From contig NZ_JADBEK010000001.1 of assembly GCF_014873145.1 (NCBI RefSeq), forward strand, positions 1,984,001 to 2,048,000: 64,000 bases of DNA. The letters run 5' to 3'. The notes below the pieces were generated by a model. That model saw nothing but the letters and a program-made list of their open reading frames with translations. It was not told the DNA's origin and did not search any database. This DNA comes from Nonomuraea angiospora. Lineage in GTDB: Bacteria > Actinomycetota > Actinomycetes > Streptosporangiales > Streptosporangiaceae. Numbering within the stretch: position 1 is the first letter of the stretch; every line of letters begins with the position of its first letter. The position numbers were made by a program, and so were the translations under genes. Shown one piece after another: positions 8,456 to 23,896 of the stretch.

Positions 8456-8587
8456 TCCATGAAACAAACAGGTGACACCTGGTCGAACCCCTGTTTTCAG
8501 CGACGCTGACGCCCTGTCAGCCCGGCCTTCCGGCGTTTTTCGCTGGTCATTGCAGGAGCCGTGGCGTCGCCCGGGCAGACCGTCATC

Positions 8588-8631: not shown

Positions 8632-8711
8632 CCCGGCCCCCGGAGGGCCTGCTCCGCAACTTTGGGGGCGTACCCTGGCATGTCACCCGTCGTCCATCCA
8701 GGGAGCACCGC

Positions 8712-11700
8712 TTGCGCAGCAATCCGGCCGATTTACGCCTGAGGGCCGCGACCGCGGTCTACCCGGCGGGCGTTCTGGCACCGCCGCCCCGCACCCTCAT
8801 CGACGTCCTCGACGAGACCGCGCGCCGCCACCCGCACGCGCCGGCGATCGACGACGGCACCGTGGTCCTCGACTACCGTTCGCTGCGCACCGAGGTGGAC
8901 CGGCTGGTCGCCGGGCTGGCCGAGGCCGGGGTCGGCCGCGGCTCCCGCGTCGGCGTGCGCCTCGCGTCGGGGACCGCCGAGCTGTACGTGTCCATCCTCG
9001 CCGTGCTCGCCGCCGGCGCCGCCTACGTGCCCGTCGACGCCGACGACCCGGCCGAACGCGCGGAGACCGTCTTCGCCGAGGCCGGCGTGGACGCGATCGT
9101 CTCCGGGGAGCTCACGGTGACCGGCACGCCGGACCGGGCTCCCGCGCCGCCCGAGCCGGGCGACGACGCGTGGATCATCTTCACCTCCGGCTCGACCGGC
9201 AAGCCGAAGGGCGTCGCGGTGACGCACCGCTCCGCCGCCGCGTTCGTGGACGCGGAAGCGGGGCTGTTCCTCCAGGAGCGGCCGCTCGGCCCCGGCGATC
9301 GGGTGCTGGCCGGGCTCTCGGTGGCCTTCGACGCCTCCTGCGAGGAGATGTGGCTGGCCTGGCGGCACGGCGCCTGCCTCGTGCCCGCGCCCAGAGCCCT
9401 GGTGCGCACCGGGATGGACCTGGGCCCGTGGCTGGCCGCCCACCGGATCACGGCCGTCTCGACCGTGCCCACGCTGGCCGCGCTCTGGCCGGCCGAGCAC
9501 CTCGACGGCATCCGGCTGCTCATCTTCGGCGGCGAGGCCTGCCCGCCCGAGCTGGCCGAGCGGCTGGCCGTGCCGGGGCGCGAGGTGTGGAACACCTACG
9601 GCCCCACCGAGGCCACCGTGGTGGCCACGGCGGCGCCGCTCACCGGCGACGGCCCGGTCCGCATCGGCCTGCCCCTCGACGGATGGGACCTCGCGGTCGT
9701 GGACGGCTCGGGCGAGCCGGTGGCCATGGGCGAGACCGGCGAGCTGGTGATCGGCGGCGTCGGCCTGGCCCGCTACCTGGACCCGGCCAAGGACGCCGAG
9801 AAGTACGCGCCGCTGCCCTCGCTGGGCTGGCCGCGCGCCTACCGCAGCGGCGACCTCGTACGCGCCGAGCCCGAGGGCCTCGTCTTCGCCGGCCGGGCCG
9901 ACGACCAGGTGAAGCTGGGCGGCCGCCGGATCGAGCTGGGCGAGGTGGACGCCGCGCTGCAGGCGCTGCCCGGGGTCGCGGGCGCGGCCGCCGCCGTCCG
10001 CACCGCCGGCGGCGGCCACCAGGTGCTCGTCGGCTACCTCGTCACCGAGCCCGGCTTCGACCTCGGGCAGGCGCGCGAACGGCTCGCGGACACGCTGCCC
10101 GCGGCCCTGGTGCCGCGTCTGGCGCCGGTCGACTCGCTGCCCACGAGGACCTCGGGGAAGATCGACCGGGCGGCGCTGCCCTGGCCGCTGACCGAGCCGG
10201 CCGCCGCGCAGGTCGCGCTGAGCCCGGCCGAGGCGCGGCTGGCCGGCCACTGGACCGCGGTCCTCGGCGTGCCGCCGAGCGGCCCCGACGCCGACTTCTT
10301 CACCGACGGCGGCACCAGCCTGGCCGCGGCCCGGCTGGTGTCGGTCCTGCGCGCCGACCATCCGGACGTGGCCGTGGGCGACGTGTACGCCCAGCCGACG
10401 CTCGGCGGGCTGGCCCGGCTGCTGTCCGGCAGGGGCGAGGCCGAGCCGGACCGGCCGCCGGTGACCCCGATGCCCGGGCGGGCCGCGCTGGCCGAGTCGG
10501 CGCTCATGGTCGTGCTGCTGAGCGCCGGCGCGGTGCGCTGGATCGTGCTGCTCGCCGCGCTCGGCAACCTGCTCGCGCCCCCGTGGGCCCCGGCGTTGTC
10601 GTGGTGGTGGGTGGCGCTGGGCGCGCTGCTGTTCGTCACCCCCGCGGGGCGGATGGGCCTGTCCGCGGGCGTGGCCCGGCTGGTGCTGCGCGGCGTGCGG
10701 CCCGGCGCCTACCCGCGCGGTGGCGGCGTGCATCTGCGGGTGTGGTTCGCCGAGCGGTTCGCCGAGCGGCTCGGCGTGCCCGACCTGGCCGGGGCGCCGT
10801 ACATGGCGTGGTACGCCCGGCTGCTCGGCGCCCAGGTGGGCGCCGACGCCGACCTGCACTCGCCGCCGCCCGTCACGGGGCTGCTCAAGCTCGGCAGGGG
10901 CGCCTCGGTCGAGCAGGAGGTCGATCTCAGCGGCTACTGGTACGACGGCGACCTGCTGCGCGTCGGCGAGATCCGGATCGGCGCGGGCGCGACCGTCGGC
11001 TCCCGCTCGACGCTGCTGCCCGGCACCAGGATCGGGAAGAACGCCCAGATCGCTCCCGGATCGGCGGTCGCCGGCACCGTACCGGCGGGACAGCACTGGG
11101 CCGGCGCGCCGGCGTTCCGGCAGGGCAAGTCCCGCCGCTCGCGCCCGGCGGAGCGGCCCGCCCGCTCCCGCTTCTGGGCCGCCGTGTACGGCGTGAGCGC
11201 CATGGTGCTCAGCCTGCTCCCCGCCGTCGCGGCCGCGGCCGGGCTCGCGGTCCTGGCCGCGTTCGCCGGCGACGCGTCCACGATCGGTGCCGCCCTGGCC
11301 GCCGCCCTGCCGGGCGTGCCGGCCGCGACCCTCGCGGGCATGGCGGCCTTCGCCCTGGTCACGCTGGTCAGCGTGCGGCTGCTCGGGCTGGGCCTGCACG
11401 CGGGCCGCCATCCGGTGCACAGCCGCCAGGCGTGGCAGGCGTGGGCGACCGGAAGGCTGATGGCCTCGGCGCGGGTCTGGCTGTTCCCCCTGTACGCCAG
11501 CGTCCTGACGCCCGTGTGGCTGCGGGCGCTCGGCATGAAGGTGGGCCGCGGCGTCGAGCTGTCCACGGTGCTGGCGCTGCCCACGATGACGTCCGTCGGC
11601 GACGGCGCGTTCCTGGCCGACGACACGATGGTGGCCCCGTACGAGCTGGACGGCGGGTGGATGCGCATCGCCTCCGCGCGGATCGGCAAGCGCGCCTTCC

Positions 11701-12551
11701 TCGGCAACTCGGGGATGACCGCGCCCGGCCGCAAGGTGCCCAAGGACGGCCTGGTCGGCGTGCTGTCGGCGACGCCGAAGAAGGCCAGGTCCGGCTCGTC
11801 GTACGTGGGCATGCCGCCCATGGAGCTGCGCCGCACCGCCGAGGACGCCGACCGCAGCCGCACCTACGACCCGCCCGCCCGGTACAAGGCCGCCAGGGCG
11901 CTGGTCGAGGCGTTCCGCGTCGTGCCCGCGATGTGCGCGGTCGCGCTCGCGGTCCTGGTGGCCGCCGCGTTCGAGTGGCTGGCGGCGAGCCACGGCTTCG
12001 CCCTGACGCTCGCGCTGGGCGGCGTGGTGCTGCTGGTCGCGGGCGTGGCCGCCGCCCTGGTCGCGACGGCCGCCAAATGGGCGCTGGTCGGGCGGATCCG
12101 GGCGGGCAGCCAGCCGCTGTGGAGTTCGTTCGTGTGGCGCAACGAGCTGGCGGACAACTTCGTGGAGGTGCTGGCGGCGCCGTGGTTCGCGCAGCCGTGG
12201 CTGGGGACCGCGCCGCTGAACGTGTGGCTGCGTTCGCTCGGGGCGCGTATCGGGCATGGGGTCACCTGTGACACGTACTGGCTGCCGGAGGCGGATCTGG
12301 TGACCCTGGGTGATGGCGCCTGCGTCAACCGGGGCTGCGTCCTGCAGACCCACCTGTTCCACGACCGGGTCATGAACATGGACACCGTGACCCTCGACGC
12401 GGGCGCGACGCTGGGCCCGCACGGCGTGGTGCTGCCCGCCGCGCGGGTGGGCGCCGACGCCACGATCGGGCCGGCCTCGCTCGTCATGCGGGGGGAGTCG
12501 GTGCCCGGCCGTACGCGCTGGTTCGGCAACCCCATCTCGGCGTGGCGATGA
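8712..12551 (+). CDS. Pls/PosA-type non-ribosomal peptide synthetase (polylysine-synthetase-like)
   Basis: A single-module membrane NRPS of 1279 residues; epsilon-poly-L-lysine synthetase is about 1320. The adenylation domain (about 25-480) shows IIFTSGSTGKPKG, FDASCEEMW, NTYGPTEAT and a TSGKIDR lysine. The carrier domain has DGGTSL with the phosphopantetheine serine at about residue 536. The rest is the family's C-terminal architecture: three membrane-helix clusters (about 590-655, 820-900, 1060-1125) alternating with hexapeptide beta-helix domains. Aligning by eye to GrsA, I read the specificity code as D-A-E-S-I-G-T-V-V-K, close to lysine-type codes. No thioesterase or condensation domain is present. 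It overlaps the downstream peptidase gene by ATGA. The product is not proven; many actinomycetes carry such genes without a known polymer. Confidence 0.85.
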   Translation: MRSNPADLRLRAATAVYPAGVLAPPPRTLIDVLDETARRHPHAPAIDDGTVVLDYRSLRTEVDRLVAGLAEAGVGRGSRVGVRLASGTAELYVSILAVLAAGAAYVPVDADDPAERAETVFAEAGVDAIVSGELTVTGTPDRAPAPPEPGDDAWIIFTSGSTGKPKGVAVTHRSAAAFVDAEAGLFLQERPLGPGDRVLAGLSVAFDASCEEMWLAWRHGACLVPAPRALVRTGMDLGPWLAAHRITAVSTVPTLAALWPAEHLDGIRLLIFGGEACPPELAERLAVPGREVWNTYGPTEATVVATAAPLTGDGPVRIGLPLDGWDLAVVDGSGEPVAMGETGELVIGGVGLARYLDPAKDAEKYAPLPSLGWPRAYRSGDLVRAEPEGLVFAGRADDQVKLGGRRIELGEVDAALQALPGVAGAAAAVRTAGGGHQVLVGYLVTEPGFDLGQARERLADTLPAALVPRLAPVDSLPTRTSGKIDRAALPWPLTEPAAAQVALSPAEARLAGHWTAVLGVPPSGPDADFFTDGGTSLAAARLVSVLRADHPDVAVGDVYAQPTLGGLARLLSGRGEAEPDRPPVTPMPGRAALAESALMVVLLSAGAVRWIVLLAALGNLLAPPWAPALSWWWVALGALLFVTPAGRMGLSAGVARLVLRGVRPGAYPRGGGVHLRVWFAERFAERLGVPDLAGAPYMAWYARLLGAQVGADADLHSPPPVTGLLKLGRGASVEQEVDLSGYWYDGDLLRVGEIRIGAGATVGSRSTLLPGTRIGKNAQIAPGSAVAGTVPAGQHWAGAPAFRQGKSRRSRPAERPARSRFWAAVYGVSAMVLSLLPAVAAAAGLAVLAAFAGDASTIGAALAAALPGVPAATLAGMAAFALVTLVSVRLLGLGLHAGRHPVHSRQAWQAWATGRLMASARVWLFPLYASVLTPVWLRALGMKVGRGVELSTVLALPTMTSVGDGAFLADDTMVAPYELDGGWMRIASARIGKRAFLGNSGMTAPGRKVPKDGLVGVLSATPKKARSGSSYVGMPPMELRRTAEDADRSRTYDPPARYKAARALVEAFRVVPAMCAVALAVLVAAAFEWLAASHGFALTLALGGVVLLVAGVAAALVATAAKWALVGRIRAGSQPLWSSFVWRNELADNFVEVLAAPWFAQPWLGTAPLNVWLRSLGARIGHGVTCDTYWLPEADLVTLGDGACVNRGCVLQTHLFHDRVMNMDTVTLDAGATLGPHGVVLPAARVGADATIGPASLVMRGESVPGRTRWFGNPISAWR

Positions 12552-13819
12552 CCCCGTACTTCGCCGGGCACGGCGACCACCGCTACATGGTGTCGCGCTA
12601 CGACCTGGCGCTGAAGTACCGGTTGGCGAACAACCGGCTCGAGGGCACGGCCCTGCTCACGGTGACGGCCGCCGAACCCCTCAGCGTGCTCGACCTGGAC
12701 CTCGGCCGCTTCCGGGTCGAAGGCGTCACCGTGGACGGCATTCCCGCCCGCCACGCGCACGGCCAGGGCAAGCTGCGGATCACGCTGCCCTGGTCGCTGG
12801 CCGCGGGCGCCGTCGCCGGGGTCGAGGTCCGCTACGCGGGCAGACCGGTGCCGGTGGCCAGCCCGTGGGGCGGGCTGGGCTGGGAGGAGCTGTCCGACGG
12901 CGCGCTGGTCGCCGGGCAGCCCATCGGCGCGCCGTCCTGGTTCCCGTGCAACGACCGGCCCGGGGACAAGGCGACGTACCGGATCTCCGTGACGACCGCG
13001 TCGCCGTACCGGGTCATCGCGAACGGGGTGCTCACCGAGCAGCGCCGCGCGGGCGGGAACACGACCTGGGTCTACGACCAGGCCGAGCCCATGGCGAGCT
13101 ATCTGGCCAGCGTGCAGATCGGGCGCTACCGGGTCGCGGAGGTCGCGGGCACCCAGGTGGCGCATCCGGCGCGCCTGGCCACCCGCATCCGGCACGACTT
13201 CGGCCGGCAGGGCGAGATGATGGCGGTCTTCACCGACCGGTTCGGGCCCTATCCGTTCGGCGGCTACGTCGTCGTCGTGACCGATGACGAGCTGGACATC
13301 CCGGTCGAGGCGCAGGGCATGTCGATCTTCGGCAGGAACCACGTGGACGGGCGGCGCGGGTTCGAGCGGCTGGTGGCGCACGAGCTGGCGCACCAGTGGT
13401 TCGGCAACAGCCTCACGTTGTCGCGCTGGAGCGACATCTGGCTGCAGGAGGGGTTCGCCACCTACGCCGAATGGCTCTGGTCGGAGGCCTCAGGCGGGCA
13501 GCCCGCCGCCGCCCACGCCCGGCGCTGGCACCAGCGCCTCACCGCCCTCCCGCAGGACTTCGTGCTGACCGACCCCGGGGTGGGCACGCTGTTCGACGAC
13601 CGCGTCTACAAGCGGGGGGCGCTGACCGTGCACGCGCTGCGCCGGACGCTGGGCGACGAGGTCTTCTTCCCCATGCTGCGCGACTGGACGGCGGGGCGGC
13701 GGCACGCGAACGTCACCACCCCGGACTTCGCCGCGCACGTCCAGCGGCACGCCGGCCGGCCGGTGGGGCCGCTGCTGGCGGCCTGGCTGCACGACAAGCC
13801 CCTGCCCCCGCTCCCCTGA
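12548..13819 (+). CDS. M1-family zinc metallopeptidase
   Basis: A 423-residue aminopeptidase-like protein: N-terminal beta-sandwich (about 1-200), then the catalytic domain. The zinc site is H278-E279-x-x-H282 (HELAH) with E301 18 residues further on in WLQEGFATY. The usual GAMEN exopeptidase motif is replaced by EAQGM, so aminopeptidase specificity is uncertain. The helical C-terminal domain of large M1 enzymes is absent. ATG 12548 overlaps the NRPS stop as ATGA, implying translational coupling; GTG 12542 is an alternative. The pairing suggests it trims or degrades the peptide product, in the way that polylysine producers carry degrading peptidases. That role is inference. Confidence 0.88.
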   Translation: MTPYFAGHGDHRYMVSRYDLALKYRLANNRLEGTALLTVTAAEPLSVLDLDLGRFRVEGVTVDGIPARHAHGQGKLRITLPWSLAAGAVAGVEVRYAGRPVPVASPWGGLGWEELSDGALVAGQPIGAPSWFPCNDRPGDKATYRISVTTASPYRVIANGVLTEQRRAGGNTTWVYDQAEPMASYLASVQIGRYRVAEVAGTQVAHPARLATRIRHDFGRQGEMMAVFTDRFGPYPFGGYVVVVTDDELDIPVEAQGMSIFGRNHVDGRRGFERLVAHELAHQWFGNSLTLSRWSDIWLQEGFATYAEWLWSEASGGQPAAAHARRWHQRLTALPQDFVLTDPGVGTLFDDRVYKRGALTVHALRRTLGDEVFFPMLRDWTAGRRHANVTTPDFAAHVQRHAGRPVGPLLAAWLHDKPLPPLP

Positions 13820-13832
13820 CGGGCTCCCCGCG

Positions 13833-13864
13833 TCCTTCCGGGACCTTCCGGGACCTTCCGGGAC
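13833..13864. repeat. Three tandem copies of a 10-bp repeat
   Basis: CCTTCCGGGA is repeated three times just after the M1 peptidase stop. No coding role is apparent. Confidence 0.75.
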
Positions 13865-13880
13865 CGATGATCAGGCTGTG

Positions 13881-13910
13881 CTCTACGACCTGTAGAGTAA
13901 GCGCGATAAT
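13881..13910 (+). promoter_or_regulatory. Inverted repeat and -10-like box before DUF3817 gene
   Basis: CTCTAC-GACCT-GTAGAG (13881-13897) is a perfect inverted repeat, followed by GATAAT at about 13905-13910, 19 bp before the GTG start. It looks like an operator over a promoter. Confidence 0.4.
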
Positions 13911-13928
13911 CGGACGAAAGGGTGGATT

Positions 13929-14225
13929 GTGCTGCGCTGGTTTCGACTCGTGGCGGTGGCCGAGGCGTGCTCGTGGGCGGGGCTGCTGGTCGGGATGTTC
14001 TTCAAGCACGTGACCCAGACCGGCGAGCTCGGCGTGAAGGTGTTCGGGCCGATCCACGGCGCGCTGTTCGTGCTGTACGCGGCCGGGGTGATCCTCTCGG
14101 CGCGGGAGGCGGGCTGGAGCCGGGGCGCCGTGGTGCTGGGCCTGGTGTGCGCGGTGCCGCCGTTCACCTCGGTGTGGTTCGAGCGGCGGATGGCGGCGCG
14201 TACGGCGGCCGGGCAGCTCGCCTGA
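13929..14225 (+). CDS. DUF3817 small integral membrane protein
   Basis: 98 residues with three predicted membrane helices (about 4-24, 38-58, 67-85) and the DUF3817 pattern of an RLVAVAEACSWAGLL start and a conserved KVFGPIHGALFVLYA helix. The GTG at 13929 is preceded by AAAGGGTGG. The family has no established function; members are often found alone. It stands as a single gene, convergent with the CDF exporter 16 bp away, under an inverted-repeat promoter. Confidence 0.8.
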   Translation: MLRWFRLVAVAEACSWAGLLVGMFFKHVTQTGELGVKVFGPIHGALFVLYAAGVILSAREAGWSRGAVVLGLVCAVPPFTSVWFERRMAARTAAGQLA

Positions 14226-14241
14226 CCGCCGGCGGCGTCCG

Positions 14242-15285
14242 TCACTCTCCCGGCGCCGTGCATCGGTGGCCGGTGCGGCCGTCGCCGGCCGCCATCTCGT
14301 CACGGCGCAGGGAGTGGTGGGTGGGGCCGTGCGGGTCGGCGCAGTGCTGCACGAGCCGGCGCAGGGCGCCGTCGTCGTCGAAGGCGTGGCTGCCGGGCGA
14401 GGCGTGGTCGACCTGCAAGGTGGTGTGCATGATGCCGGGGCCCTCCCGGAGCAGGCACTCGGCCGCCAGGCGCGCGGCGTGGCAGTCGGCGCCGGGGGTG
14501 ACCAGCACGTGCGCCGACAGGGCGGCGTACCCGGAGGTGACCTCCCAGATGTGCAGGTCGTGCACCTCGACCACGGTGTCCAGGGCGGCGATCTGGCGGC
14601 CGACCTCGGCGGGGTTCACCTCGGCCGGGGCGGCCTCCATGAACACCCGTCCGGCGGCCCGCACCAGGCCCCATCCCGCCTTGGACATCAGAGCGGCGAC
14701 CATCAACGCGGCGATGGCGTCGGCGCGGGCCCAGCCCGTGAGCCAGACGATTACGCCGGCCAGCGTGGTGGCGATGAAGGCGTACAGGTCGTTGAGGATG
14801 TGCTGGAAGGCGCCCTCGACGTTGAGGCTGGAGCGGTCGGCCCGGGACAGCAGCCAGGTGGCGGCCACGTTCACGGCGATGCCGGCCAGCCCGGTGACCA
14901 CCACGAACAGCCCCTCGACGTGCGGCGGCTCGATCAGGCGGCGGACGCCCTCGACGGTGAAGTAGGCCGCGAGCAGCAACAGGGTGATGCCGTTGGCCTG
15001 GGCGGAGATGATCTCGGCGCGCTTTAGGCCATAGGTGAAACCGTCGCGCGGCGGACGGGCCGCGATGCGCATCGCGACCAGCGCCAGCACGATCGCCATC
15101 GCGTCGGTGAGCATGTGGCCGGCATCGGAGATCAGCGCCAGCGACCCGGCGATCACCCCGATCACGACCTCGACGGCCATGAAGGCGGCGATCAGGGCGA
15201 GCGCGCCGCCGAGATGGCGCCGGTCCGCGTGCGCGCTGACGCCGTGCCCATGGCCGTGCCCGTGGTGCCCGTGGTTATCAGACAT
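14242..15285 (-). CDS. CDF-family Zn2+/Co2+/Cd2+ exporter (CzcD-like)
   Basis: Exports divalent metal in exchange for protons across the inner membrane. 347 residues with a His-rich N-terminus (HGHHGHGHGHG), six membrane helices (about 27-205) and a cytoplasmic ferredoxin-like C-terminal domain. The transport-site motifs HMLTD (helix 2) and HILND (helix 5) fit zinc transporters. The start ATG at 15285 follows GGAGCTCGGCGC. It is divergent from a 38-residue metal-ligand-rich peptide gene, with a palindrome between that resembles ArsR-family metalloregulator operators, so metal-induced expression is likely. Zinc as the main substrate is inferred from motifs. Confidence 0.93.
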   Translation of the reverse strand: MSDNHGHHGHGHGHGVSAHADRRHLGGALALIAAFMAVEVVIGVIAGSLALISDAGHMLTDAMAIVLALVAMRIAARPPRDGFTYGLKRAEIISAQANGITLLLLAAYFTVEGVRRLIEPPHVEGLFVVVTGLAGIAVNVAATWLLSRADRSSLNVEGAFQHILNDLYAFIATTLAGVIVWLTGWARADAIAALMVAALMSKAGWGLVRAAGRVFMEAAPAEVNPAEVGRQIAALDTVVEVHDLHIWEVTSGYAALSAHVLVTPGADCHAARLAAECLLREGPGIMHTTLQVDHASPGSHAFDDDGALRRLVQHCADPHGPTHHSLRRDEMAAGDGRTGHRCTAPGE

Positions 15286-15321
15286 GCGCCGAGCTCCTTC
15301 CTCTCCTCGCTTCTACACATG

Positions 15322-15339
15322 AACATCTGATCAGGTGTT
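15322..15339. promoter_or_regulatory. Palindromic operator between CDF exporter and His-rich peptide
   Basis: AACATCTGATCAGGTGTT is an 18-bp palindrome with one mismatched pair and sits within a TGAACA...TGTTTA frame, similar to ArsR/SmtB sensor sites. A TTGACA lies just upstream on the minus strand (15361-15356). It would control both divergent genes. Confidence 0.55.
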
Positions 15340-15391
15340 TAAACCGAATGTAGCGTGTCAATTACTCTGCGTATAAGAGAAGGGAATCGCG

Positions 15392-15508
15392 ATGACCACC
15401 GACCCCCACCACCATCACGACGAGGCGGCCTGCCCGGCCCACCCGGACGAGCCTGCGGACGAGAGCGCGGCCTGCTGCCACGACGATCACGACCCCGACC
15501 AGGAGTAG
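15392..15508 (+). CDS. 38-residue His/Cys/Asp-rich putative metal-binding peptide
   Basis: An ATG after AGAAGGGA (7-nt spacing) opens 38 codons. The peptide has 7 His (four consecutive at 6-9, then 17, 30, 33), 3 Cys (14, 28, 29), 8 Asp and 4 Glu, with no Lys, Arg, Leu, Ile, Val or aromatic residue. That composition cannot make a hydrophobic core and looks like a metal sponge or metallochaperone. TATAAG at 15372-15377 is a good -10 box, and a perfect 15-bp-stem terminator begins 9 nt after the stop, so it forms a complete small transcription unit. It is divergent from the CDF exporter under a shared palindrome. I recognise no family. Confidence 0.7.
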   Translation: MTTDPHHHHDEAACPAHPDEPADESAACCHDDHDPDQE

Positions 15509-15516
15509 CCCCCCGC

Positions 15517-15550
15517 GGGTGTGCCCGCCGCCACGGCGGCGGGCACACCC
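15517..15550 (+). terminator. Strong terminator after His-rich peptide gene
   Basis: GGGTGTGCCCGCCGC and its exact complement form a 15-bp stem with a 4-nt loop, starting 9 nt after the stop codon. It isolates the small gene from the DivIVA gene. Confidence 0.8.
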
Positions 15551-15595
15551 CGCCGCTTCCAGCGCCCACGGCGAAAGGTTCGGTGACGGCCCGCC

Positions 15596-16165
15596 ATGCA
15601 TGTCACACACGAAGAGCACGACCACGGCCCCGTTCTCCCCCACAGCCACGCGTCGGCCGGCGGAGCGCCCGTCCCGCTGCCCGTCCAGGGGAACGTGCCC
15701 GGCCAGTTCGCGCTGCTGACCGCCCCCATGGTGCACCACCAGGTCTTCACCGTGGTACGGCTGCGTTCGGGCTACGACCTGGCCGAAGTGGACACCTTCC
15801 TGGCGCACGTGGAGACCACGCTCAGCCTGCTCTGGCAGGACAACGCCCGCCTGCGCGAACGGCTGTCCACGCCGCCCACCGGCGTCGGGGGAGAGACGAT
15901 CGCGGCCGCCCGGCGGGAGGCCCGGCGGATCGTGGCCGCCGCCCACGAGGACGCCGAACGGCTGCGCGGCGAGGCCGCGGCGGCCGCCGACGCGCTGGCC
16001 CAGGCCGCCCGCCTGGCCATCGGGGAACGGCTCGACGGCGTGATCGCCGACCATGGCCGGCACCTGCACGACACCCTGCGCGCCCTGCTGGACGACATCG
16101 TCGCACCCCCACCCGGGGAAACGGCGGCCGTACGCGCGCATGACGACCCCGCCGAGCCCGACTGA
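15596..16165 (+). CDS. DivIVA-domain protein with His-rich N-terminus
   Basis: 189 residues. The first 20 contain six His (HVTHEEHDHG and HSH), then a Pro/Gly linker, a DivIVA domain at about 47-85 (FTVVRLRSGYDLAEVDTFL) and an Ala/Arg/Glu-rich coiled coil at about 100-160. DivIVA proteins sense curved membrane and organise polar growth or division in actinobacteria. The start is uncertain: no good ribosome-binding site precedes ATG 15596, and ATG 15728 would remove the His-rich part. It sits between a zinc exporter with its metal-rich peptide and a ZIP-like transporter, suggesting metal binding by the N-terminus. That link is inference and I know of no described precedent. Confidence 0.75.
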   Translation: MHVTHEEHDHGPVLPHSHASAGGAPVPLPVQGNVPGQFALLTAPMVHHQVFTVVRLRSGYDLAEVDTFLAHVETTLSLLWQDNARLRERLSTPPTGVGGETIAAARREARRIVAAAHEDAERLRGEAAAAADALAQAARLAIGERLDGVIADHGRHLHDTLRALLDDIVAPPPGETAAVRAHDDPAEPD

Positions 16166-16371
16166 CACCGGGCCCGACCGACACCGCCCCTGACCGACAC
16201 CCCGCCTGACCGACACCGCCCCTGACCGACACCCCGCTCGACGGACACCGCCCCTGACCGACACCGGGCCCGACCGACACCGGGCCCGACCGACACCGGG
16301 CCCGACCGACACCGCCCCTGACCGACACCGGGCCCGACCGACACCGGGCCCGACCGACACCGGGCCCCGGC
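16162..16371. repeat. 16-bp minisatellite, 13 copies
   Basis: The hexamer GACACC recurs at exact 16-bp intervals from 16164 to 16356. Units vary among GGGCCCGACC, GCCCCTGACC and CCGCCTGACC plus GACACC. A 16-bp period cannot be coding, and stop-free minus-strand frames here are artefacts. It fills most of the 285-bp gap between the DivIVA gene and the ZIP-like gene. Beyond it, a 15-bp motif (CGCTGTCACCTCGCC) is duplicated at about 16394-16437. Confidence 0.9.
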
Positions 16372-16450
16372 CAGAAGTCGTCTCCTTTCCGCAGCGCTGT
16401 CACCTCGCCCGAAATGAGCACCGCTGTCACCTCGCCAGAAAGGCTGCGCC

Positions 16451-17599
16451 ATGTTCGTGCCGCTCGCAGGCCCGGCATCATCGGTGGCCACGCAGGAGCC
16501 GATGCCGGGCTGGGCGACCTGGGCCGCCGTGGCCCTGGTCGCGCTGTCCACGCTCACCGGCGCCTACCTGGCCCGGCGCAACACCGCGAGCGTCAGTGTC
16601 TGGCTGGCCGTCGCCTCGGCCCTGATGCTCGTCACCGCCCTGGTCGACCTGCTGCCCGATGCCTGGGAGGAGGCCGAGGCCACCGGCGTGCCGCTGTGGG
16701 TGGTGGGGCTGGCCGGGGTGTTCGGGTTCGTGGTCATCACGTACTTCACCCGCAAGGGGTGCGGCCACCAGCACGACGAGGGCGGTTCCGGCGGCCGGCA
16801 CGCGCCCGGCGTGCACCGGCGGGTGAGGCAGGCCGTGAGCGCCGCCGTCTACGGCGGGGTGGGGACCGCCGCCGCGCTGTCCCTGCACCGCATGATCGAG
16901 GGCGCCACCCTGGCGCTGGCCGCCTCCGCCGTCGTGGTGGCCGCCCTGGTGGTCCACTCGGCCAGTGAAGGGCTCGCGCTGACCGCCCTGCTCGACCTGG
17001 CGCGCAAACGGCTCGCACCGTGGCTGACGGTCTCCTGCCTCGCCCCTGCGACCGGCGTCGTGCTGGCCACCGTGGCGCCCCTGCCGCCGCAGAGCGTGCC
17101 GATCCTGCTCGGCATGATCACCGGCGTGCTGCTGCGTACCGCGCTGATCGGCCTGACGATAGCCCGCGACAGCCGGCGGCTCTCGCGGCGGCACCTGATC
17201 CTCGCGGCCACCGCCGTGGCGGCCATAGGCGGCCTGTTGGTTTCGGCGCAGGCCCTCCTGTCCGCCGGTCGCTCCGAGGGGGCGGCGCCCGTCGCCGCCG
17301 CTCCGCTGCCGCGCCCGAGCGCGGCGCCGCTCTCCCGGCAGCTGACCCCGGCCGAGCTGCGCGCCGCGGTCGCGACCGGACGGATCGGCCTGGAGTCCCT
17401 GCTGTCCCGCAGGGACGCGACCACCATCGGGGCCGACGCCGCGACCCTGCTCCGCGTCCTGCCGGGGCACGCCCCCGACGAGATCACCGAAACCCTGCGG
17501 AAGGCGAAGATCGACGGTGGCGCCACCATCGGCGACCTCACCCTGCGCCAGCGTCACCTCCTCCTCGCCGCCCTCAGCGACGCGCCGCCGGCCCGATGA
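16451..17599 (+). CDS. ZIP-like divalent metal transporter with C-terminal extension
   Basis: 382 residues. About eight membrane helices lie within residues 20-275, with a His-rich loop at about 103-120 (CGHQHDEGG). The paired metal-site motifs HRMIEG and HSASEG, in successive helices, match the ZIP/GufA signature for zinc or related uptake. After residue about 275 comes an Ala/Pro stretch and a soluble helical tail of about 100 residues with no domain I recognise; ordinary ZIP proteins stop near 260-280. A 19-bp tandem repeat begins over its stop codon. With the exporter at 14242 it would give import/export balance. Substrate and direction are inferred from motifs. Confidence 0.75.
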   Translation: MFVPLAGPASSVATQEPMPGWATWAAVALVALSTLTGAYLARRNTASVSVWLAVASALMLVTALVDLLPDAWEEAEATGVPLWVVGLAGVFGFVVITYFTRKGCGHQHDEGGSGGRHAPGVHRRVRQAVSAAVYGGVGTAAALSLHRMIEGATLALAASAVVVAALVVHSASEGLALTALLDLARKRLAPWLTVSCLAPATGVVLATVAPLPPQSVPILLGMITGVLLRTALIGLTIARDSRRLSRRHLILAATAVAAIGGLLVSAQALLSAGRSEGAAPVAAAPLPRPSAAPLSRQLTPAELRAAVATGRIGLESLLSRRDATTIGADAATLLRVLPGHAPDEITETLRKAKIDGGATIGDLTLRQRHLLLAALSDAPPAR

Positions 17600-17692
17600 C
17601 CCGAGGCCGAGGTGATGACGCGAGGTTGAGCTGTTGACCCGAGGCCGAGCCAATGACGCGAGGTTGAGCTGTTGAGCCGAGGCCGAGCTGTT
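17597..17692. repeat. 19-bp tandem repeat, about five copies
   Basis: Units of the form (T/A)TGACnCGAGGnnGAGCnn repeat every 19 bp from the stop codon of the ZIP-like gene, alternating CGAGGCCGAG and CGAGGTTGAG. A 19-bp period is not coding. The remaining bases to 17813 show nothing else I recognise. Confidence 0.85.
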
Positions 17693-17813
17693 GGCCGTCG
17701 GACCGGGCGACAGCCCGAGGTCCAGGGCCTGGAGCGTGCCGCTGACGGCCGCCCGCCGTCGAGTCCTGCGTCGCCACGTGGTCGCCGGCCCGCTTGAGCT
17801 CCGAGCACGCGCG

Positions 17814-19802
17814 TCACGGCCTTGGAGCGTGCCGCGCCAGGCGTACGGCCAGGAGGGCGAGCGGGAGCAGCGGGACGAGCAGGTGGACGGCCCCGGCCAG
17901 CTGCTGGTCGGTGAAGAGGTCCGGCGCGCCGTCGGGGCCCACCAGGTAGAACCAGTCGGCCGCGACCGGCGGGCCGAGCAGCAGGTACGCCCCCACGGCC
18001 AGCTGTACCAGCAGCACGCCGCCCAGCAGCCCGGCACGCAGCGGCCGGGAGACGGGGCGCGGCACCGGGTCCGCGCCCGCCAGCACCCAGAAGACCAGCA
18101 GCCCGCCGCCCAGGAACAGGGCCATGGTGAGCAGGTGAGCGGCGTGGCCGGCCAGCGACCAGGCCAGCCAGCCGGTGCGGTACAGCAGCGGGAACGCCAC
18201 CATGTACGCCGCCGGGAGAAGGGCGAGGAAGCTCAGCCTGCGCTTGCGGAGCCAGGCGCCGAGGTCGCCGTACTGGGAGGACTCCGTGGTGGCCCGGGCG
18301 GCGAGGGTGAGCGGGGCGCCGAGGCAGAGTAGGAGAGGCGCGACGACGGCCAGCACGACGTGCTGCAGGGCCTGGACCGACAGCATCGCCCGCGCGTAGC
18401 CGCCGATCCCGGAGAGCAGGACCAGCGCCAGGAGGGCCAGGCCCGCGTACCAGGCGAGCGTGCGGCCGAGCGGCCAGTCCCCCGCGCGGCGCACGCCGAC
18501 CAGGTATCCGACGGCGGGCAAGGCCAGGCAGAGCAGGATCAGCGGGTCCGGGCGGAGCTCGGTGAGCAGCGCGCCAGGTGTGAAGGGCGGCAGGTCGTAC
18601 TCCAGCAGGCGCTCATGCGCGTCCGCGACGCCCGGGGGCGGGGGCGGCGGCGGAGTGCGGGACAGGCCGACGGCCAGGCCGATGGCCGCCATCATCACGA
18701 TCAGCTCACCCGCCGCCAGCCGGACGAAGACGTGGCGCACGCTCCGATCGGCGACGTGCGCGACTGTACGGCTCCGGTCGGCGACATGCGCGACCGTACG
18801 GCTGCGGTCTGCGATGTGCGCGACCGTACCGCTGTGGTCGGCGACGTGCGTGCCCGTGCCGCTACCGTCGGCGACGCTCGCGACCGTACCGCTGCGGTCT
18901 GCGACATGCGCGACCGCACCGCTACCGTCTGCGGCGCGCGCGACCGTGCGGCTGCGGTGGGTCCAGCCGAACAGGCCGAGCAGCACGAGTGCGGCGGTCT
19001 TGGCCAGCAGGAACTGCCCGTACTCGGTCCGCCAGAGGTCGGACACGGCGCTCAGCCGCACCCACGCCCCCACCGCCCCGGAGACGGCCACCGCCGCGAA
19101 ACAGCACAAGGCGATCGTGCTGAACCGGGACAGCACGGCCCGCAGGTCGCCGGCGCGGCGGAAGTGGATGAGGACGGCGCCCAGCCCGCCGACCCACAGC
19201 GACACCGCGATCAGGTGGACCGTCAGCGCGGAGACCGCGACGTCGTGATCGGCGGCCGAGGCGGCGTGCCCGACGTAGGCGGGCGGCAGCAGCCCGAACG
19301 CGGCGATCGCCAGCGCGACCCACCCGGGCAGGCGCGGCAGCCGGGTGGCCAGGACGACCATGGTGATCGCGCCCAGCACCGGCAGCAGGGCCCGCGCCTG
19401 CGGGATGGTCAGGCCGTATTGCAGCAGGCCGGGATCGGCGAGCAGGTCCGTGACGGGCAGCGGCAGCACGTACGACATGGTCAGCGGGTAGCTCAGGGCG
19501 GCGGTGACCGCCCATCCCAGCGCCCACCACCGGGCCGCTCGCAGGCAGGCCCCCTTCTCGGGCGAGCCGGCCGGAGCCAGGACGACGGCGGCCAGCAACG
19601 TTCCCAGGGTGGCCACCGCGCACAGGTCGTAGCAGAGCTTGACCAGCGGCAGGGCCCACTCGGTGACGGGGCCGGCGGTGGGCAGCCCCGCGATCGCCGG
19701 CTCCGCCCCGGCACCCCCGAACCGCACCGCCGCGACCAGCACCACGACGCCCGCCGCCACCACCGAACCGGCATAGACCCGCGTCGCTGCCCTCATATTC
19801 AT
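17814..19802 (-). CDS. CopD-CtaG fusion membrane protein (copper handling)
   Basis: 662 residues with some 14-15 membrane helices. Residues about 10-385 are CopD-like (copper transport), with helices around 190-280 and 362-380. Residues about 410-655 match the CtaG/caa3 cytochrome oxidase assembly family found fused to CopD in actinobacteria. The likely role is copper delivery to cytochrome oxidase or copper tolerance. Residues 285-354, in a loop right after a GWTHR motif, consist of seven copies of a ten-residue repeat absent from the typical family layout. The start may be ATG 19802 or 19796. It is convergent with the ZIP-like gene. Confidence 0.85.
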   Translation of the reverse strand: MNMRAATRVYAGSVVAAGVVVLVAAVRFGGAGAEPAIAGLPTAGPVTEWALPLVKLCYDLCAVATLGTLLAAVVLAPAGSPEKGACLRAARWWALGWAVTAALSYPLTMSYVLPLPVTDLLADPGLLQYGLTIPQARALLPVLGAITMVVLATRLPRLPGWVALAIAAFGLLPPAYVGHAASAADHDVAVSALTVHLIAVSLWVGGLGAVLIHFRRAGDLRAVLSRFSTIALCCFAAVAVSGAVGAWVRLSAVSDLWRTEYGQFLLAKTAALVLLGLFGWTHRSRTVARAADGSGAVAHVADRSGTVASVADGSGTGTHVADHSGTVAHIADRSRTVAHVADRSRTVAHVADRSVRHVFVRLAAGELIVMMAAIGLAVGLSRTPPPPPPPGVADAHERLLEYDLPPFTPGALLTELRPDPLILLCLALPAVGYLVGVRRAGDWPLGRTLAWYAGLALLALVLLSGIGGYARAMLSVQALQHVVLAVVAPLLLCLGAPLTLAARATTESSQYGDLGAWLRKRRLSFLALLPAAYMVAFPLLYRTGWLAWSLAGHAAHLLTMALFLGGGLLVFWVLAGADPVPRPVSRPLRAGLLGGVLLVQLAVGAYLLLGPPVAADWFYLVGPDGAPDLFTDQQLAGAVHLLVPLLPLALLAVRLARHAPRP
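18741..18950 (-). repeat. In-frame 30-bp repeat, seven copies, within CopD-CtaG gene
   Basis: Seven contiguous 30-bp units encode decapeptides of the type (R/G)TVAHVADRS. The frame is preserved throughout, so expansion or contraction changes loop length without breaking the protein. Confidence 0.92.
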
Positions 19803-19870
19803 CGGATACGCGGAGGGGCGCAGACCGGTTCATTGGCAGGGTTTGCCGGACATGTCCCACATTGCAACTC

Positions 19871-19898
19871 TTGACAGTAAAGATCCGGATATTAGGGT
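19871..19898 (+). promoter_or_regulatory. Promoter of GH84 gene
   Basis: TTGACA (19871-19876), a 16-bp spacer and TAGGGT (19893-19898) form a good sigma-70-type promoter about 80 bp before the start codon. Confidence 0.65.
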
Positions 19899-19910
19899 GA
19901 TGATCAGGTT

Positions 19911-19926
19911 GCCGGTCTAGACCGCG
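19911..19926. promoter_or_regulatory. DasR-like box 1
   Basis: Contains the perfect core GGTCTAGACC (19914-19923) of the DasR responsive element, placed just downstream of the predicted transcription start, a repressing position. Confidence 0.65.
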
Positions 19927-19953
19927 CGGAGAAAGGCGCGCCCCGACTCCCCC

Positions 19954-19969
19954 ATGGGTATAGACCAGT
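19954..19969. promoter_or_regulatory. DasR-like box 2
   Basis: ATGGGTATAGACCAGT matches 13 of 16 bases of the DasR palindrome ACTGGTCTAGACCAGT and sits just before the ribosome-binding site of the GH84 gene. Confidence 0.6.
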
Positions 19970-19979
19970 GGAGACTTTC

Positions 19980-21941
19980 GTGAGAAGACGCAAGATCACC
20001 CCTGCGGCGTGCCTCGCGCTGGCCGCGACCCTGTGTGCGGGAGCGCTCCTGCCCGTCCCCGCGGCCCAGGCCGCTCCCGTCCCGCCCTTACCCTCGGTGT
20101 CGCCCACCCCGCAGTCGCTGACCGGCACCGGCGCCGCCGCCGTCGTCACCGGCCGGGTGCTCGTGGTCGCCGACGGCCAGACCGACCCCGCCGCCCGCGA
20201 CCGCCTCGTACGGGAGCTCAGGGCGCACGGCGCCGACCGGGTGGACACGGTAGCCCCCGACAGGATCCCCGCGGGCACGTCCGGCCTGCTCAAGGTCCGC
20301 CTCGGCCCCGGGGCCCGCCCCGACATCGCGCAGGCGCTCGGCGGCGCGGTCGTGCCCGGCCAGGCCGAGGGGTACGCGTTGCGGGTCTCGGGCGGCACCT
20401 CGCGCCAGATCGCGCTCGGCGGCAAGGACGCCGCGGGCCAGTTCTACGCCGTGCAGACACTGCGCCAGCTGTTCGTCCCGTCCGGCGGCGGCTGGAAGGT
20501 GGCGGGGGTCCAGGTCAGCGACTTCCCGTCCATGCCGCTGCGCGGCACCATCGAAGGCTTCTACGGCGCGCCGTGGACCCACGCCGAACGCCTCGACCAG
20601 ATGGACTTCTACGGCGACGTCAAGGCCAACACCTACATCTACGCCCCCAAGGACGATCCCTACCACCGGGACAAGTGGCGCGATCCCTACCCGGCGGACA
20701 AGCTCGCCGAGCTGGGCGAGCTGGTGGCGCGGGCCGGCGCGAACCACGTCCGCTTCACCTTCGCGCTCTCCCCCGGCGTGTCGATCTGCTACTCCGACCG
20801 CGCGGACCGCGACACCCTCAAGCGGAAGCTGCAGGCGCTCTACGACCTGGGCGCCAGGGCGTTCTCCATCCCGCTGGACGACATCAGCTACACCCGCTGG
20901 AACTGCGCGGCGGACGAGACGGCCTACGGCGCGGCCGGACGCACCGCGGCCGCCAAGGCCCAGGTCGATCTCCTCAACGACCTGCAGCGCGACTTCATCG
21001 CCAGCCACGAAGGCGCCCGGCCGCTGCAGATGGTGCCCACCGAGTACGGCGACCTCACCGACACCACGTACAAGCAGACCCTGCGGGCCTCCCTCGATCC
21101 CTCGGTCGAGGTGATGTGGACCGGCACCGACACCGTGCCGCCGGAGATCACCAACGCGCAGGCCGAGAAGGCGGCGCAGCTGTTCGGGCGCAAGGTCTTC
21201 GTCTGGGACAACTACCCGGTCAACGACTACGGCAACACCAGTGGCCGGCTGCTGCTGGCGCCCTACGACAAGCGTGAGGGCGGCCTGGCCGCGCACCTGT
21301 CCGGCATCGTGGCCAACCCGATGAACCAGCCGTACGCGAGCAAGGTCGCGGTCTTCGGCGCCGCGGACTTCACCTGGAACGACAGGGCGTACGACGCGAG
21401 GAGGAGCTGGCCGCGCGCGATGGCCTATCTCGCGGGCGGCGACCAGGCGGCCACGGCGGCCCTGCTGGTCTTCGGCGACCTGGAGCACCTGGCTCCGACG
21501 TTCGGCGGCACGCCGTGGCAGACCCAGGCGCCCGAGCTCGCCGCGCGGGTGGCGGCGTTCTGGCAGGCGTGGGACGCCGGGCGGCGTACCCAGGCGATCA
21601 GCGCGCTGAGGCCGTACGCGAAGGCCATCGCCACGGCGCCGGCCACCATCCGGGGCGGAGCGGTGGAGAAGGGCTTCACCGACGACGCCGCGTCCTGGCT
21701 GGACGCCACCGAGCTGTGGGGCCGGGCGACGGTGGACATGCTGGACGCGCTCCAGGCCCGGGAGGCCGGGGACGAGGCCAAGGCGGCCGCGTTGCTCGCC
21801 GAGTCGCGCGAGCTGCAGCGGCAGGCCCGCGCCGTGCGGGTCAGCCCGCCGCGCAACCGCTGGGGCGCGGCCCAGCCCCAGGTGGGCGACGGGGTGCTCG
21901 ACGTCTTCCTGGCCGCGGCCGACGCCCGGCTCCAGCGGTGA
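19980..21941 (+). CDS. Secreted GH84 beta-N-acetylglucosaminidase
   Basis: Removes beta-linked N-acetylglucosamine from glycans outside the cell. About 653 residues: signal peptide 1-31 (AAQA site), an N-terminal GH20b-like domain (about 40-165), the GH84 barrel from about 180 (GTIEGFYGAPWTHAERLDQM) with catalytic Asp pair D300-D301 in IPLDDISY, and a helical C-terminal region. GTG 19980 is preferred because GGAG lies 6 nt upstream; GTG 19968 is in frame but lacks one. Two DasR-type boxes flank the transcription start, so repression relieved by GlcN-6-P is expected. It is convergent with the GH35 gene. Confidence 0.9.
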   Translation: MRRRKITPAACLALAATLCAGALLPVPAAQAAPVPPLPSVSPTPQSLTGTGAAAVVTGRVLVVADGQTDPAARDRLVRELRAHGADRVDTVAPDRIPAGTSGLLKVRLGPGARPDIAQALGGAVVPGQAEGYALRVSGGTSRQIALGGKDAAGQFYAVQTLRQLFVPSGGGWKVAGVQVSDFPSMPLRGTIEGFYGAPWTHAERLDQMDFYGDVKANTYIYAPKDDPYHRDKWRDPYPADKLAELGELVARAGANHVRFTFALSPGVSICYSDRADRDTLKRKLQALYDLGARAFSIPLDDISYTRWNCAADETAYGAAGRTAAAKAQVDLLNDLQRDFIASHEGARPLQMVPTEYGDLTDTTYKQTLRASLDPSVEVMWTGTDTVPPEITNAQAEKAAQLFGRKVFVWDNYPVNDYGNTSGRLLLAPYDKREGGLAAHLSGIVANPMNQPYASKVAVFGAADFTWNDRAYDARRSWPRAMAYLAGGDQAATAALLVFGDLEHLAPTFGGTPWQTQAPELAARVAAFWQAWDAGRRTQAISALRPYAKAIATAPATIRGGAVEKGFTDDAASWLDATELWGRATVDMLDALQAREAGDEAKAAALLAESRELQRQARAVRVSPPRNRWGAAQPQVGDGVLDVFLAAADARLQR

Positions 21942-21985
21942 GCGGCGCGGGTCGGCCGAACTCCTCACGGTGAGCGGCCCTCGGG

Positions 21986-23896
21986 TCAGCCGAACTCCTC
22001 GACGTACTCCTCAGGAGGGCCCAGCTCGGGGCGGTCGCGCAGCTCCAGGGTCGCGCCGAGCCGTTCCAGCTCGAGGACCGTCACGGTGTTCTCGCCCGCG
22101 CGGAGCAGCGGCGCCGGGCAGTACAGCGTGACCTGCGGCCCGATGTCCCAGTAGCGGCCGAGCAGAAAGCCGTTGACCCAGACGAGGCCCCGCCGGGATC
22201 CCGGCAGGGCCAGGAAGGTGTCCGCGGGCGTCTCGACGTCGACGGTGGCGACGGCGAACCCGGCCCCGGCGTGCTCGGACGCGGGGCCTGTGTGCTCGGG
22301 GGCGGGGCCCGCGTGCTCGGACGCGGGGCCTTTGTGCTCGGGGGCGGGGACTGCGGCGAGGGCGTGGGTCAGTTCGGCGGTGGACCACTCCTGCAGGGCG
22401 ATCGGCGTGCTGTCCCAGCCCTGCACCATCCGCCGGTCCACGAGGACCGGGCCGCGCAGGCCCTTGTGCCGGCCGATGCCGGGCCCGTAGTTCACCCGGC
22501 CGAGGCTCTCGACCAGGACCTCCAGGTGGACGGCGGCGCCGGTCCCGCGTACCGGCAGCTCCGGATGGTCAGGGCCGGCGACGCCGAGGAAGGCGCCATC
22601 GGCGAAGACCAGGGCCCGGTCGCGCACGTCGGTGAGGACGAGCCGGTGCTCGCCCGCCGGGACACGCGGGCGCGCGCTGTGCAGGACCATGCCCGCGTCG
22701 AGCCCGAGCCGCTCGAACGAGGCCGGGCGCGGCCCGGTCGAGGTGGGCGCCGGCACGGCACGCAGGCCGGCGAGCAGACCGGCGCGGTGGACGAGCGGGA
22801 CGGACGACGGCGGCAGCGTCGGCGTCCGCGCGGGCATCCGCACGGGTCCGCGCGCGCCGAGCGCCTCCCGCACGGCGAAGAACTTGGCTGTCAGCGTGCC
22901 GTCCTCGGCCACCGGCGCGTCGGAGTCGTAGCTGGTCACGGTGGGCTGCAACCGGCCCTCGTGCTCGTTGGCACCCGCCCAGAGCCCGAAGTTGGTCCCG
23001 CCGTGCGCCATGTAGATGCTCACGCTGCCGCCGTCGGCGACGATCTGCTTCAGCGCGTCCACGACGCTGCCGGGCTCGCGAACGTGATGACGCTCGCCCC
23101 AGTGGTCGAACCAGCCGTTCCAGAACTCGGCGACGACGAACGGCTCCTCCGGCCGCCGCTGCGCGAGCAGCCGCCGGGCGGCGTCGGGCTTGGAGCCCAG
23201 GGTGACGGCCGCCAGGGTCCCCGGCAGGGTGCCGCCGTCCAGCATCAGCTCGGTGGGCCCGTCGGCGGTGAACAGCAGCTCCCCGATGCCGCGCTCGACC
23301 AGGGCCTCGCGGTTCCAGCGCAGGTACGCCTGGTCGTCGCCGAAGCTGCCGAACTCGTTCTCCACCTGCACCGCCACCACGGGCCCGCCCTCGGCGGCCT
23401 GGAGCGCGGCGATGCGCGGGACCAGCTCGTCGAACCAGCGGCCGACCGCCGAGGTGAACGCGGGGTCGGAGCTGCGGATCGCGACGTCGCGGCCGGTGAG
23501 CCAGCTCGGCAGGCCGCCGTTCGACCACTCCGCGCAGATGTACGGGCCGGGCCGGACGACGACGTCGAGCCCCTCCTCCCCCACCGTGCGGATGAACCGC
23601 TCGACGTCCCGCCACCCGTCGAAGCGCGGCGCCTCGTCCTCGCGCGGCTGGTGGAAGTTCCACGCGACGTACGTGTCCACCGTGTTGAGCCCGAGGTCGG
23701 CGAGCCGGCGGATGCGGTCCCGCCAGAGGTCGGGGTGGACGCGGAAGTAGTGCAGCCCCCCGGACAGGATGCGATGGGGTACGCCGTGCCGGTACAGGCG
23801 GCCCGCGCGCCAGGTGAGCGCGCTCTCATCAGCCAGGGAGGCGGTCGTGGTCGTCGTCGGGGCCGGCGAGAGGTCCGGCGCGGGCAGCTCGATCAC
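21986..23896 (-). CDS. GH35 beta-galactosidase
   Basis: Releases terminal beta-galactose from oligosaccharides. 636 residues without a signal peptide, so cytoplasmic. The GH35 barrel (about 28-345) shows LSGGLHYFRVHPDLW, GPYICAEWSNGGLP, the acid/base E181 in VENEF and the nucleophile E257 in AEFWNGW. Beta-sandwich domains follow. Near residues 518-545 a linker contains four copies of a seven-residue PA(P/S)EHxG repeat. The start is GTG 23896 with no clear ribosome-binding site. The 14-bp operator at 23911-23924 overlaps its promoter, and it is divergent from the LacI gene, which is its probable repressor. Confidence 0.9.
   Translation of the reverse strand: MIELPAPDLSPAPTTTTTASLADESALTWRAGRLYRHGVPHRILSGGLHYFRVHPDLWRDRIRRLADLGLNTVDTYVAWNFHQPREDEAPRFDGWRDVERFIRTVGEEGLDVVVRPGPYICAEWSNGGLPSWLTGRDVAIRSSDPAFTSAVGRWFDELVPRIAALQAAEGGPVVAVQVENEFGSFGDDQAYLRWNREALVERGIGELLFTADGPTELMLDGGTLPGTLAAVTLGSKPDAARRLLAQRRPEEPFVVAEFWNGWFDHWGERHHVREPGSVVDALKQIVADGGSVSIYMAHGGTNFGLWAGANEHEGRLQPTVTSYDSDAPVAEDGTLTAKFFAVREALGARGPVRMPARTPTLPPSSVPLVHRAGLLAGLRAVPAPTSTGPRPASFERLGLDAGMVLHSARPRVPAGEHRLVLTDVRDRALVFADGAFLGVAGPDHPELPVRGTGAAVHLEVLVESLGRVNYGPGIGRHKGLRGPVLVDRRMVQGWDSTPIALQEWSTAELTHALAAVPAPEHKGPASEHAGPAPEHTGPASEHAGAGFAVATVDVETPADTFLALPGSRRGLVWVNGFLLGRYWDIGPQVTLYCPAPLLRAGENTVTVLELERLGATLELRDRPELGPPEEYVEEFG
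22263..22346 (-). repeat. In-frame 21-bp repeat, four copies, within GH35 gene
   Basis: Four 21-bp units encode PA(P/S)EH(K/A/T)G heptapeptides in an inter-domain linker. The reading frame is kept. Confidence 0.85.

Follow-up and report, generated by a model that had tools for sequence, protein, structure and literature searches.

Why should a gene for a DivIVA-domain protein lie among genes of metal transport? DivIVA is the organizer of tips and septa and the marker of growing cell tips. In the window analyzed here, a 64,000-nucleotide stretch of the single-contig, 13.09 Mb genome of Nonomuraea angiospora, such a gene was found between the genes for a short His/Cys/Asp-rich peptide and a ZIP-like membrane protein, with a gene for a cation exporter of the CDF family next to them on the opposite strand. 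The original prediction had listed these four genes, together with six His in the first 20 residues of the DivIVA-like protein, and all of them were recovered where it had placed them. Its central claim, the membership of a DivIVA-domain protein in a metal locus, was borne out by the conserved neighborhood, the operator-like and promoter-like elements, and the His-rich N-terminus of most CDF-linked copies. The link of the locus to metal is well supported, and far more confidence attaches to a metal function than to a scaffold role of the DivIVA-like protein. The reading that we favor, and to which we give an even chance of being right, is that of a metal-excess island: the His-rich DivIVA-like protein would bind both membrane and metal and act as a scaffold for the ZIP-like transporter. 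Its polar placement is plausible.

Conservation of the DivIVA–ZIP Neighborhood

Relatives of the DivIVA-like protein were found at E < 1e-9 in 55 of 345 genomes of the order, the genome of the window included; weaker matches looked Wag31-like. The set of 62 DivIVA-anchored loci consisted of the window, a paralogue from the same genome, and 60 places picked from this search, with eight non-Wag31 places of E up to 1e-9 left out (two in G044 and one each in G040, G042, G038:C9, G039, G041:C8, and G257:C2). All counts per locus refer to the fetched stretches, some of which end at contig ends, and gene starts were picked by a script according to ribosome-binding-site and start-codon rules.

A same-strand ZIP-like gene was present in 55/62 loci, in 54 of them at no more than about 1.2 kb from midpoint to midpoint, and BLAST alone detected a ZIP match above 100 bits in 57/62 stretches. 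The DivIVA-like gene came first in 43 loci and the ZIP-like gene in 12. The best quick tree built from the ZIP membrane part, in which the deeper forks were weak, implied three changes of gene order; hence, the adjacency of the two genes outlives their order. CDF matches above 250 bits accompanied 36 of the 62 anchors, and the 13.09 Mb genome of the window contained only five CDF-like places, the one in the island included.

The reciprocal scan of named genomes, anchored on the ZIP-like gene, gave 74 loci from organisms partly shared with the first set. They came mainly from Streptosporangiales (Nonomuraea, Planotetraspora, Acrocarpospora, Herbidospora, Microbispora, Streptosporangium, Actinomadura, and others) and also from Streptomyces, Actinacidiphila, Pseudonocardia, and Actinomycetospora. 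A same-strand DivIVA-like gene was found in 57/74 loci (56 within 1.5 kb, one at 4 kb) and a CDF match above 150 bits in 40/74 (38 within 5 kb); in 26 of these 40 loci the nearest CDF gene and the ZIP-like gene were on opposite strands. Across the class, matches were obtained in 21 of 296 genomes and were mostly weak and generic. The original prediction had named unrelated neighborhoods of the homologues as grounds for rejecting it; the ZIP-like and DivIVA-like neighbors seen from either anchor, and the recurrent CDF gene, mostly spoke against this. It had overlooked a second DivIVA–ZIP module, 10.7 Mb along the same contig, in which a gene for a 239-residue DivIVA-like protein (52% identity over residues 1–138) is followed after 34 bp by a gene for a 408-residue ZIP-like protein.

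The DivIVA-Like Protein

The DivIVA-like gene (15596–16165, + strand) encodes 189 residues that comprise a His-rich segment (1–20), a DivIVA domain (approximately 41–92), and a coiled coil (99–169). The protein exceeded the family cut-offs of PF05103 (33.1 vs. 28 bits) and TIGR03544 (24.1 vs. 22 bits), and PF05103 matched all 35 aligned family sequences (E up to 0.01). In the AlphaFold2 model the DivIVA domain is followed by a long helix over residues 99–169, with block pLDDT values of 92–98 from residue 101 onwards. Against the PDB, the family profile matched the N-domain of Wag31 (6lfa, 3.8e-11) and DivIVA of B. subtilis (2wuj, 1e-6) over the DivIVA domain. The top match was a designed helical bundle (3.2e-11), which we attribute to the coiled coil, whereas the Wag31 match covers the DivIVA domain instead. 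The Foldseek search with the model gave no useful match. The core is near that of the Wag31-like protein of the same genome (RLRSGYDLAEVDTFL vs. RLRPGYDEEEVDAFL in Wag31), whose gene lies elsewhere, 3' of genes read as ftsZ and sepF; the Wag31 equivalog NF050102 was not reached by the island protein (31.2 vs. 260 bits).

The N-terminus, MHVTHEEHDHGPVLPHSHAS, carries the six His within residues 1–20. Homologues starting without His at the position of the ATG at 15728 (residue 45) had been put forward as a second reason to reject the prediction. Among the 35 aligned sequences, residue 45 is Met in the window only, and the nearest relatives start with MHIEHEDHVYG, MHVKHEEHDHR, or MHSEHEDHDDD; both observations support the upstream start, and His-poor relatives do exist. 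The N-terminus drifts almost freely, 16–19 of 43 codons being the same in four comparisons vs. 30–33 of 48 in the core, and it seems that its composition was kept rather than its exact sequence. Ahead of the script-defined DivIVA core, 31 of 56 relatives had at least three His. Such N-termini were found in 26/31 copies with a CDF gene within 5 kb vs. 5/17 copies without it (Fisher p 3e-4). The His-rich N-terminus thus held for the nearest relatives and for most CDF-linked copies and was not a universal trait.

Four DivIVA-domain relatives (L056, L070, L076, and L078) have neither the His N-terminus nor a ZIP match. In four loci, taken to be the same ones, the DivIVA-like gene has a His-rich methyltransferase-like gene as its neighbor.

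The ZIP-Like Protein and Its mIHF-Like Tail

The ZIP-like gene (16451–17599, + strand) codes for an eight-helix membrane protein with an mIHF-like C-terminal domain. The membrane part (residues 20–276; 16508–17278, + strand) is predicted to fold like BbZIP, with eight helices and the His/Glu metal-site motifs HRMIEG and HSASEG in helices 4 and 5; conserved His was noted in the loop between helices 3 and 4. The score with PF02535 stayed below the gathering score (23.5 vs. 35.1 bits), and 32 of 33 relatives matched this family (E up to 1; best 1.8e-9). The ZIP identity assigned earlier was therefore supported by fold and motifs and not by the Pfam score, and the tail had been overlooked. A match of the ZIP family profile to a viral polyprotein (0.0012) was taken as chance.

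The tail (residues 298–376; 17342–17578, + strand) is an mIHF/sIHF-like, S13-like H2TH domain. Its family sequence profile matched 6tob (1.5e-7) and 4itq (1.2e-5), and the fold search likewise returned sIHF and mIHF. With the actinobacterial IHF model NF041260 the window protein scored 14.8 vs. 60 bits required; 23/33 relatives matched the model (E up to 1; best 1.3e-12). Among 58 ZIP-like sequences, 20 had no tail of at least 60 residues. In 38 tails, many basic positions of 6tob were lost and some kept, the contact residues not being structure-derived, and none of the tails (0/38) had the third Arg of RRxR. The passages of the mIHF papers PMC10028186, PMC6155035, and PMC3724605 contain no list of DNA-contact residues.

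Judged by loop charges, both ends of the ZIP-like protein are predicted to lie outside the cell, the tail with them, which argues against a simple chromosome tether. The linker ahead of the tail is positively charged (mean K+R 4.5), and this weakens the topology argument.

The second IHF paralogue of this genome (L097) has a KRRLGGLG stretch, in which the third Arg is absent too, and by eye this stretch is nearer to the ZIP tails than that of the first paralogue. Five Planotetraspora loci (L117, L127, L135, L141, and L167) contain ZIP-mIHF genes without a DivIVA-like gene; the gene upstream, judged by a motif, presumably encodes a Cu/Zn superoxide dismutase-like protein. In the Actinomycetospora locus L171, positions 5980–8762 and the flanks hold genes for ArsR, a Zn/Cd-type P-ATPase, the ZIP-like protein, and a further CDF-like protein.

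The Exporter, the Peptide and the Regulatory Elements

The gene for the ZitB-like CDF exporter (14242–15285, − strand) is the only one of the island on its strand. The product scored 124 bits with PF01545, 38 bits with PF16916, and 236.7 bits with TIGR01297 (cut-off 82.35); it did not reach the ZitB equivalog NF002923 (180 vs. 408 bits). The 38-residue peptide (15392–15508, + strand) contains 7 His, 3 Cys, and 12 Asp/Glu and, by this composition, is probably a metal buffer. Small same-strand His/Cys-rich open reading frames were seen 5' of the DivIVA-like gene in 13/62 loci, vs. 0/62 on the opposite strand.

Between the divergent CDF and peptide genes lies the inverted repeat TGAACATCTGATCA (15320–15333, unstranded), a putative operator of the SmtB/ArsR type, the extended pattern of which occurs once in the genome. 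It has the looser form TGA-N8-TCA, found in 19/62 DivIVA-upstream regions (Markov mean 4.05, max 9) and 10/38 CDF-upstream regions (mean 1.88, max 5). The strict form TGAA-N6-TTCA, absent from the window, occurred in 11/62 (mean 0.08, max 3) and 6/38 regions (mean 0.03, max 1), respectively. These counts are not independent because four near-identical Planotetraspora loci contribute to them and sites in a shared divergent region enter both the DivIVA-upstream and the CDF-upstream count.

The promoter-like element TAAACCGAATGTAGC..AATTACT..GCGTATAAG follows at 15340–15377 (+ strand). The 38-base pattern derived from the two modules matched nowhere else in the 13.09 Mb genome when as many as three mismatches were allowed. 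The related element GTAAC..AACTACT..CGTAAG was present in 12/62 upstream regions and in none of 30 shuffles; this pattern is data-derived and misses the window's own variant, GTAGC..AATTACT. The operator and promoter patterns alike were written after some of the same sequences had been viewed, and the shuffles control composition only, not the choice of pattern.

ArsR-family matches were obtained in 31/62 DivIVA-anchored and 42/74 ZIP-anchored loci, several of them directly 5' of the CDF gene. Many of these proteins contain E(L/M)CVCDL and DSHVR..HxxH stretches, which we take to resemble the known SmtB-type metal sites, and both ArsR proteins tested matched NF033788, the ArsR/SmtB metalloregulator model. 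In the window, a weak ArsR match (32 bits) was located at 43310–43561, and the two closest ArsR kin encoded in the same genome, at 2.50 and 7.59 Mb, each lie directly 5' of another CDF gene. Control of the island in trans by a distant repressor is possible. Where the original prediction had spoken of zinc status, the metal character of the locus stood and was refined to the metal-excess, ArsR/SmtB type of control; the ArsR genes of the related loci had escaped it. Control by Zur was dropped, since none of the 62 upstream regions came closer than four mismatches to a Zur-like 15-mer.

A perfect 16-nucleotide hairpin (15517–15550, + strand; arms 100% complementary, spacer of 2 nucleotides) separates the peptide gene from the DivIVA-like gene. 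No T run follows it on the 3' side, and it is possibly an attenuator or a processing site.

Plasmid Copies

The plasmid of Streptomyces sp. CdTB01 (soil, Changsha) carries genes for ArsR/SmtB, a 66-residue His/Cys peptide, CDF, ZIP-like, and DivIVA-domain proteins within 5.4 kb, with two other genes in between. Identity to the window proteins was 68% for CDF (aligned part) and 44% for the ZIP-like protein, which has no tail. Four other plasmid matches had the ZIP-like gene and no DivIVA-like or CDF match in the stretch. A tblastn search with the DivIVA protein against the plasmid collection gave nothing at 1e-5, though plasmid L207 holds a relative. On another Streptomyces plasmid (L210), a distant ZIP-like gene is near those for a heavy-metal regulator and a P-type ATPase.

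Intergenic Repeats and Flanking Genes

The DivIVA-like and ZIP-like genes of the window are separated by a 16-bp tandem repeat in 13.5 copies (16152–16367). The gap of 285 bp ranked second among the 52 pairs measured, the longest being 2,202 bp (L074). A 19/38-bp tandem repeat (17597–17693) begins at the end of the ZIP-like gene. The adjoining CopD/CtaG fusion gene (17814–19802, − strand) has an internal 30-bp tandem repeat (18740–18958), and CopC or CopD/CtaG relatives were seen near a few related loci. Further off, positions 8712–12551 encode a large protein that combines AMP-binding, carrier, and hexapeptide domains and is reminiscent of the Pls/PosA-type synthetases; an M1 peptidase gene follows.

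Discussion

How might these components work together? In the reading of a metal-excess island with a DivIVA-based scaffold, an ArsR/SmtB repressor, encoded at the locus in many relatives and acting in trans on the window copy, would occupy the operator that separates the CDF gene from the peptide–DivIVA–ZIP genes. Excess of a divalent metal, most likely Zn(II) and possibly Cd(II) or Co(II), would release the repressor and so induce the island; the CDF exporter would then send the metal out and the His/Cys peptide would buffer it. The DivIVA-domain protein may form an oligomer on the inner face of the membrane, with the His-rich N-termini as a metal-binding surface, and may gather the ZIP-like protein by direct contact into a membrane patch, whichever way this transporter would carry metal and whatever part the mIHF-like tail may play. 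Such a patch would probably form where DivIVA proteins collect, that is, at tips, branch points, and septa. A bolder version of this reading has the DivIVA subfamily sensing metal through its His-rich N-terminus and assembling at hyphal tips a ZIP-fold complex that displays the mIHF-derived domain outside, so that metal excess would be handled, or signaled to tip growth, at one site. We regard this version as rather improbable.

Several observations weigh against the scaffold reading. Five of the 62 DivIVA loci have no ZIP match above 100 bits, and 17 of the 74 ZIP loci have no DivIVA-like gene; among the latter are Acrocarpospora loci that have CDF and ArsR, as well as three loci of Actinomycetospora with matches to ArsR and P-type ATPase and, as read, a CDF gene. 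The second module of the genome has neither CDF nor His/Cys peptide in the stretch read, and BLAST found no ArsR match in positions 8001–26000 of the window. Among the 56 relatives 25 are His-poor, some of which keep the same ZIP neighbor, and the association of N-terminal His with CDF fails after correction for kinship, the five independent pairs on starred branches being too few. The CdTB01 plasmid encodes a DivIVA-domain protein whose acidic N-terminus has two Cys, and a ZIP-like protein whose helix-5 motif reads GSTSDG instead of HSxSEG. The ZIP family sequence profile matched no ZIP structure at E up to 0.01. Finally, ZIP proteins are usually importers and are odd members of a metal-excess cluster.

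The DivIVA-like protein might instead co-assemble with the housekeeping DivIVA/Wag31 and alter tip growth or branching under metal excess. The closeness of its core to the host's own Wag31 and the profile match to 6lfa speak for such a partnership, as does the ability of DivIVA to multimerize and direct hyphal tip growth, described in PMC12585849. However, the patchy spread over 55/345 genomes hints at an accessory function, and its pairing with the ZIP-like gene indicates the transporter as the partner; we hold this alternative to be doubtful. The second alternative reduces the DivIVA domain to a mere oligomerizing membrane anchor for a His-rich metal sponge, the poles and the ZIP partner being irrelevant. 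An N-terminus that keeps composition rather than sequence, in loci shared with His/Cys peptides, is what such a sponge would look like, but the ZIP neighbor was kept by His-poor members and the adjacency survived changes of gene order; this explanation, too, appears unlikely.

Much less probable is a link between the membrane and the chromosome or surface DNA, in which the mIHF-like tail would bind DNA, the DivIVA-like protein would place the anchor at the tip, and metal would modulate it. The likeness of the tail to mIHF/sIHF by sequence profile and fold agrees with DNA binding, and the positive linker makes the topological objection less strong. Yet several basic mIHF positions have been lost, the third Arg of RRxR in all tails, though others were kept, about a third of the sequences (20/58) lack a tail of this length, and the loop charges place both ends outside; because of this topology the chromosome tether is rated low. 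A chance neighborhood of unrelated genes, which the window alone was insufficient to exclude, is hardly credible, having already been refuted as a general account: the grouping is conserved from both anchors and in either gene order, recurs elsewhere in the genome as a bare DivIVA–ZIP pair, and is present on a Streptomyces plasmid.

The scaffold reading draws on parts of known systems. The island protein shares the N-terminal DivIVA domain and the coiled coil with DivIVA/Wag31, and differs from them in being short, accessory, extended by a His-rich N-terminus, and set in a metal context. The transporter has the eight-helix fold and the His/Glu motifs of helices 4 and 5 of BbZIP and ZupT, but it often ends with an mIHF-like domain, sits with CDF and ArsR, and in the window falls below the Pfam cut-off. 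The tail resembles mIHF/sIHF in its H2TH-type fold and its profile matches; unlike them, it is fused to a membrane protein, shorter, partly deprived of basic residues, and predicted to be extracellular. The CDF gene, the SmtB-type inverted repeat, and the regulator in many relatives recall the ArsR/SmtB-controlled CDF metal-resistance operons, to which the island adds the DivIVA-domain and ZIP-mIHF proteins, the window copy having no adjacent regulator gene. No description of such a cluster was found among the papers listed from the open-licence literature on DivIVA with metals, ZIP, or CDF and on IHF with ZIP, covered mostly by titles and abstracts.

With a conserved DivIVA subfamily residing in metal islands, a connection from metal stress to polar growth would become directly testable. 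The island would also show the fold of a nucleoid protein fused to a metal transporter. It offers a lead, too, for proteins annotated as hypothetical or by domain only, such as those on the CdTB01 plasmid.

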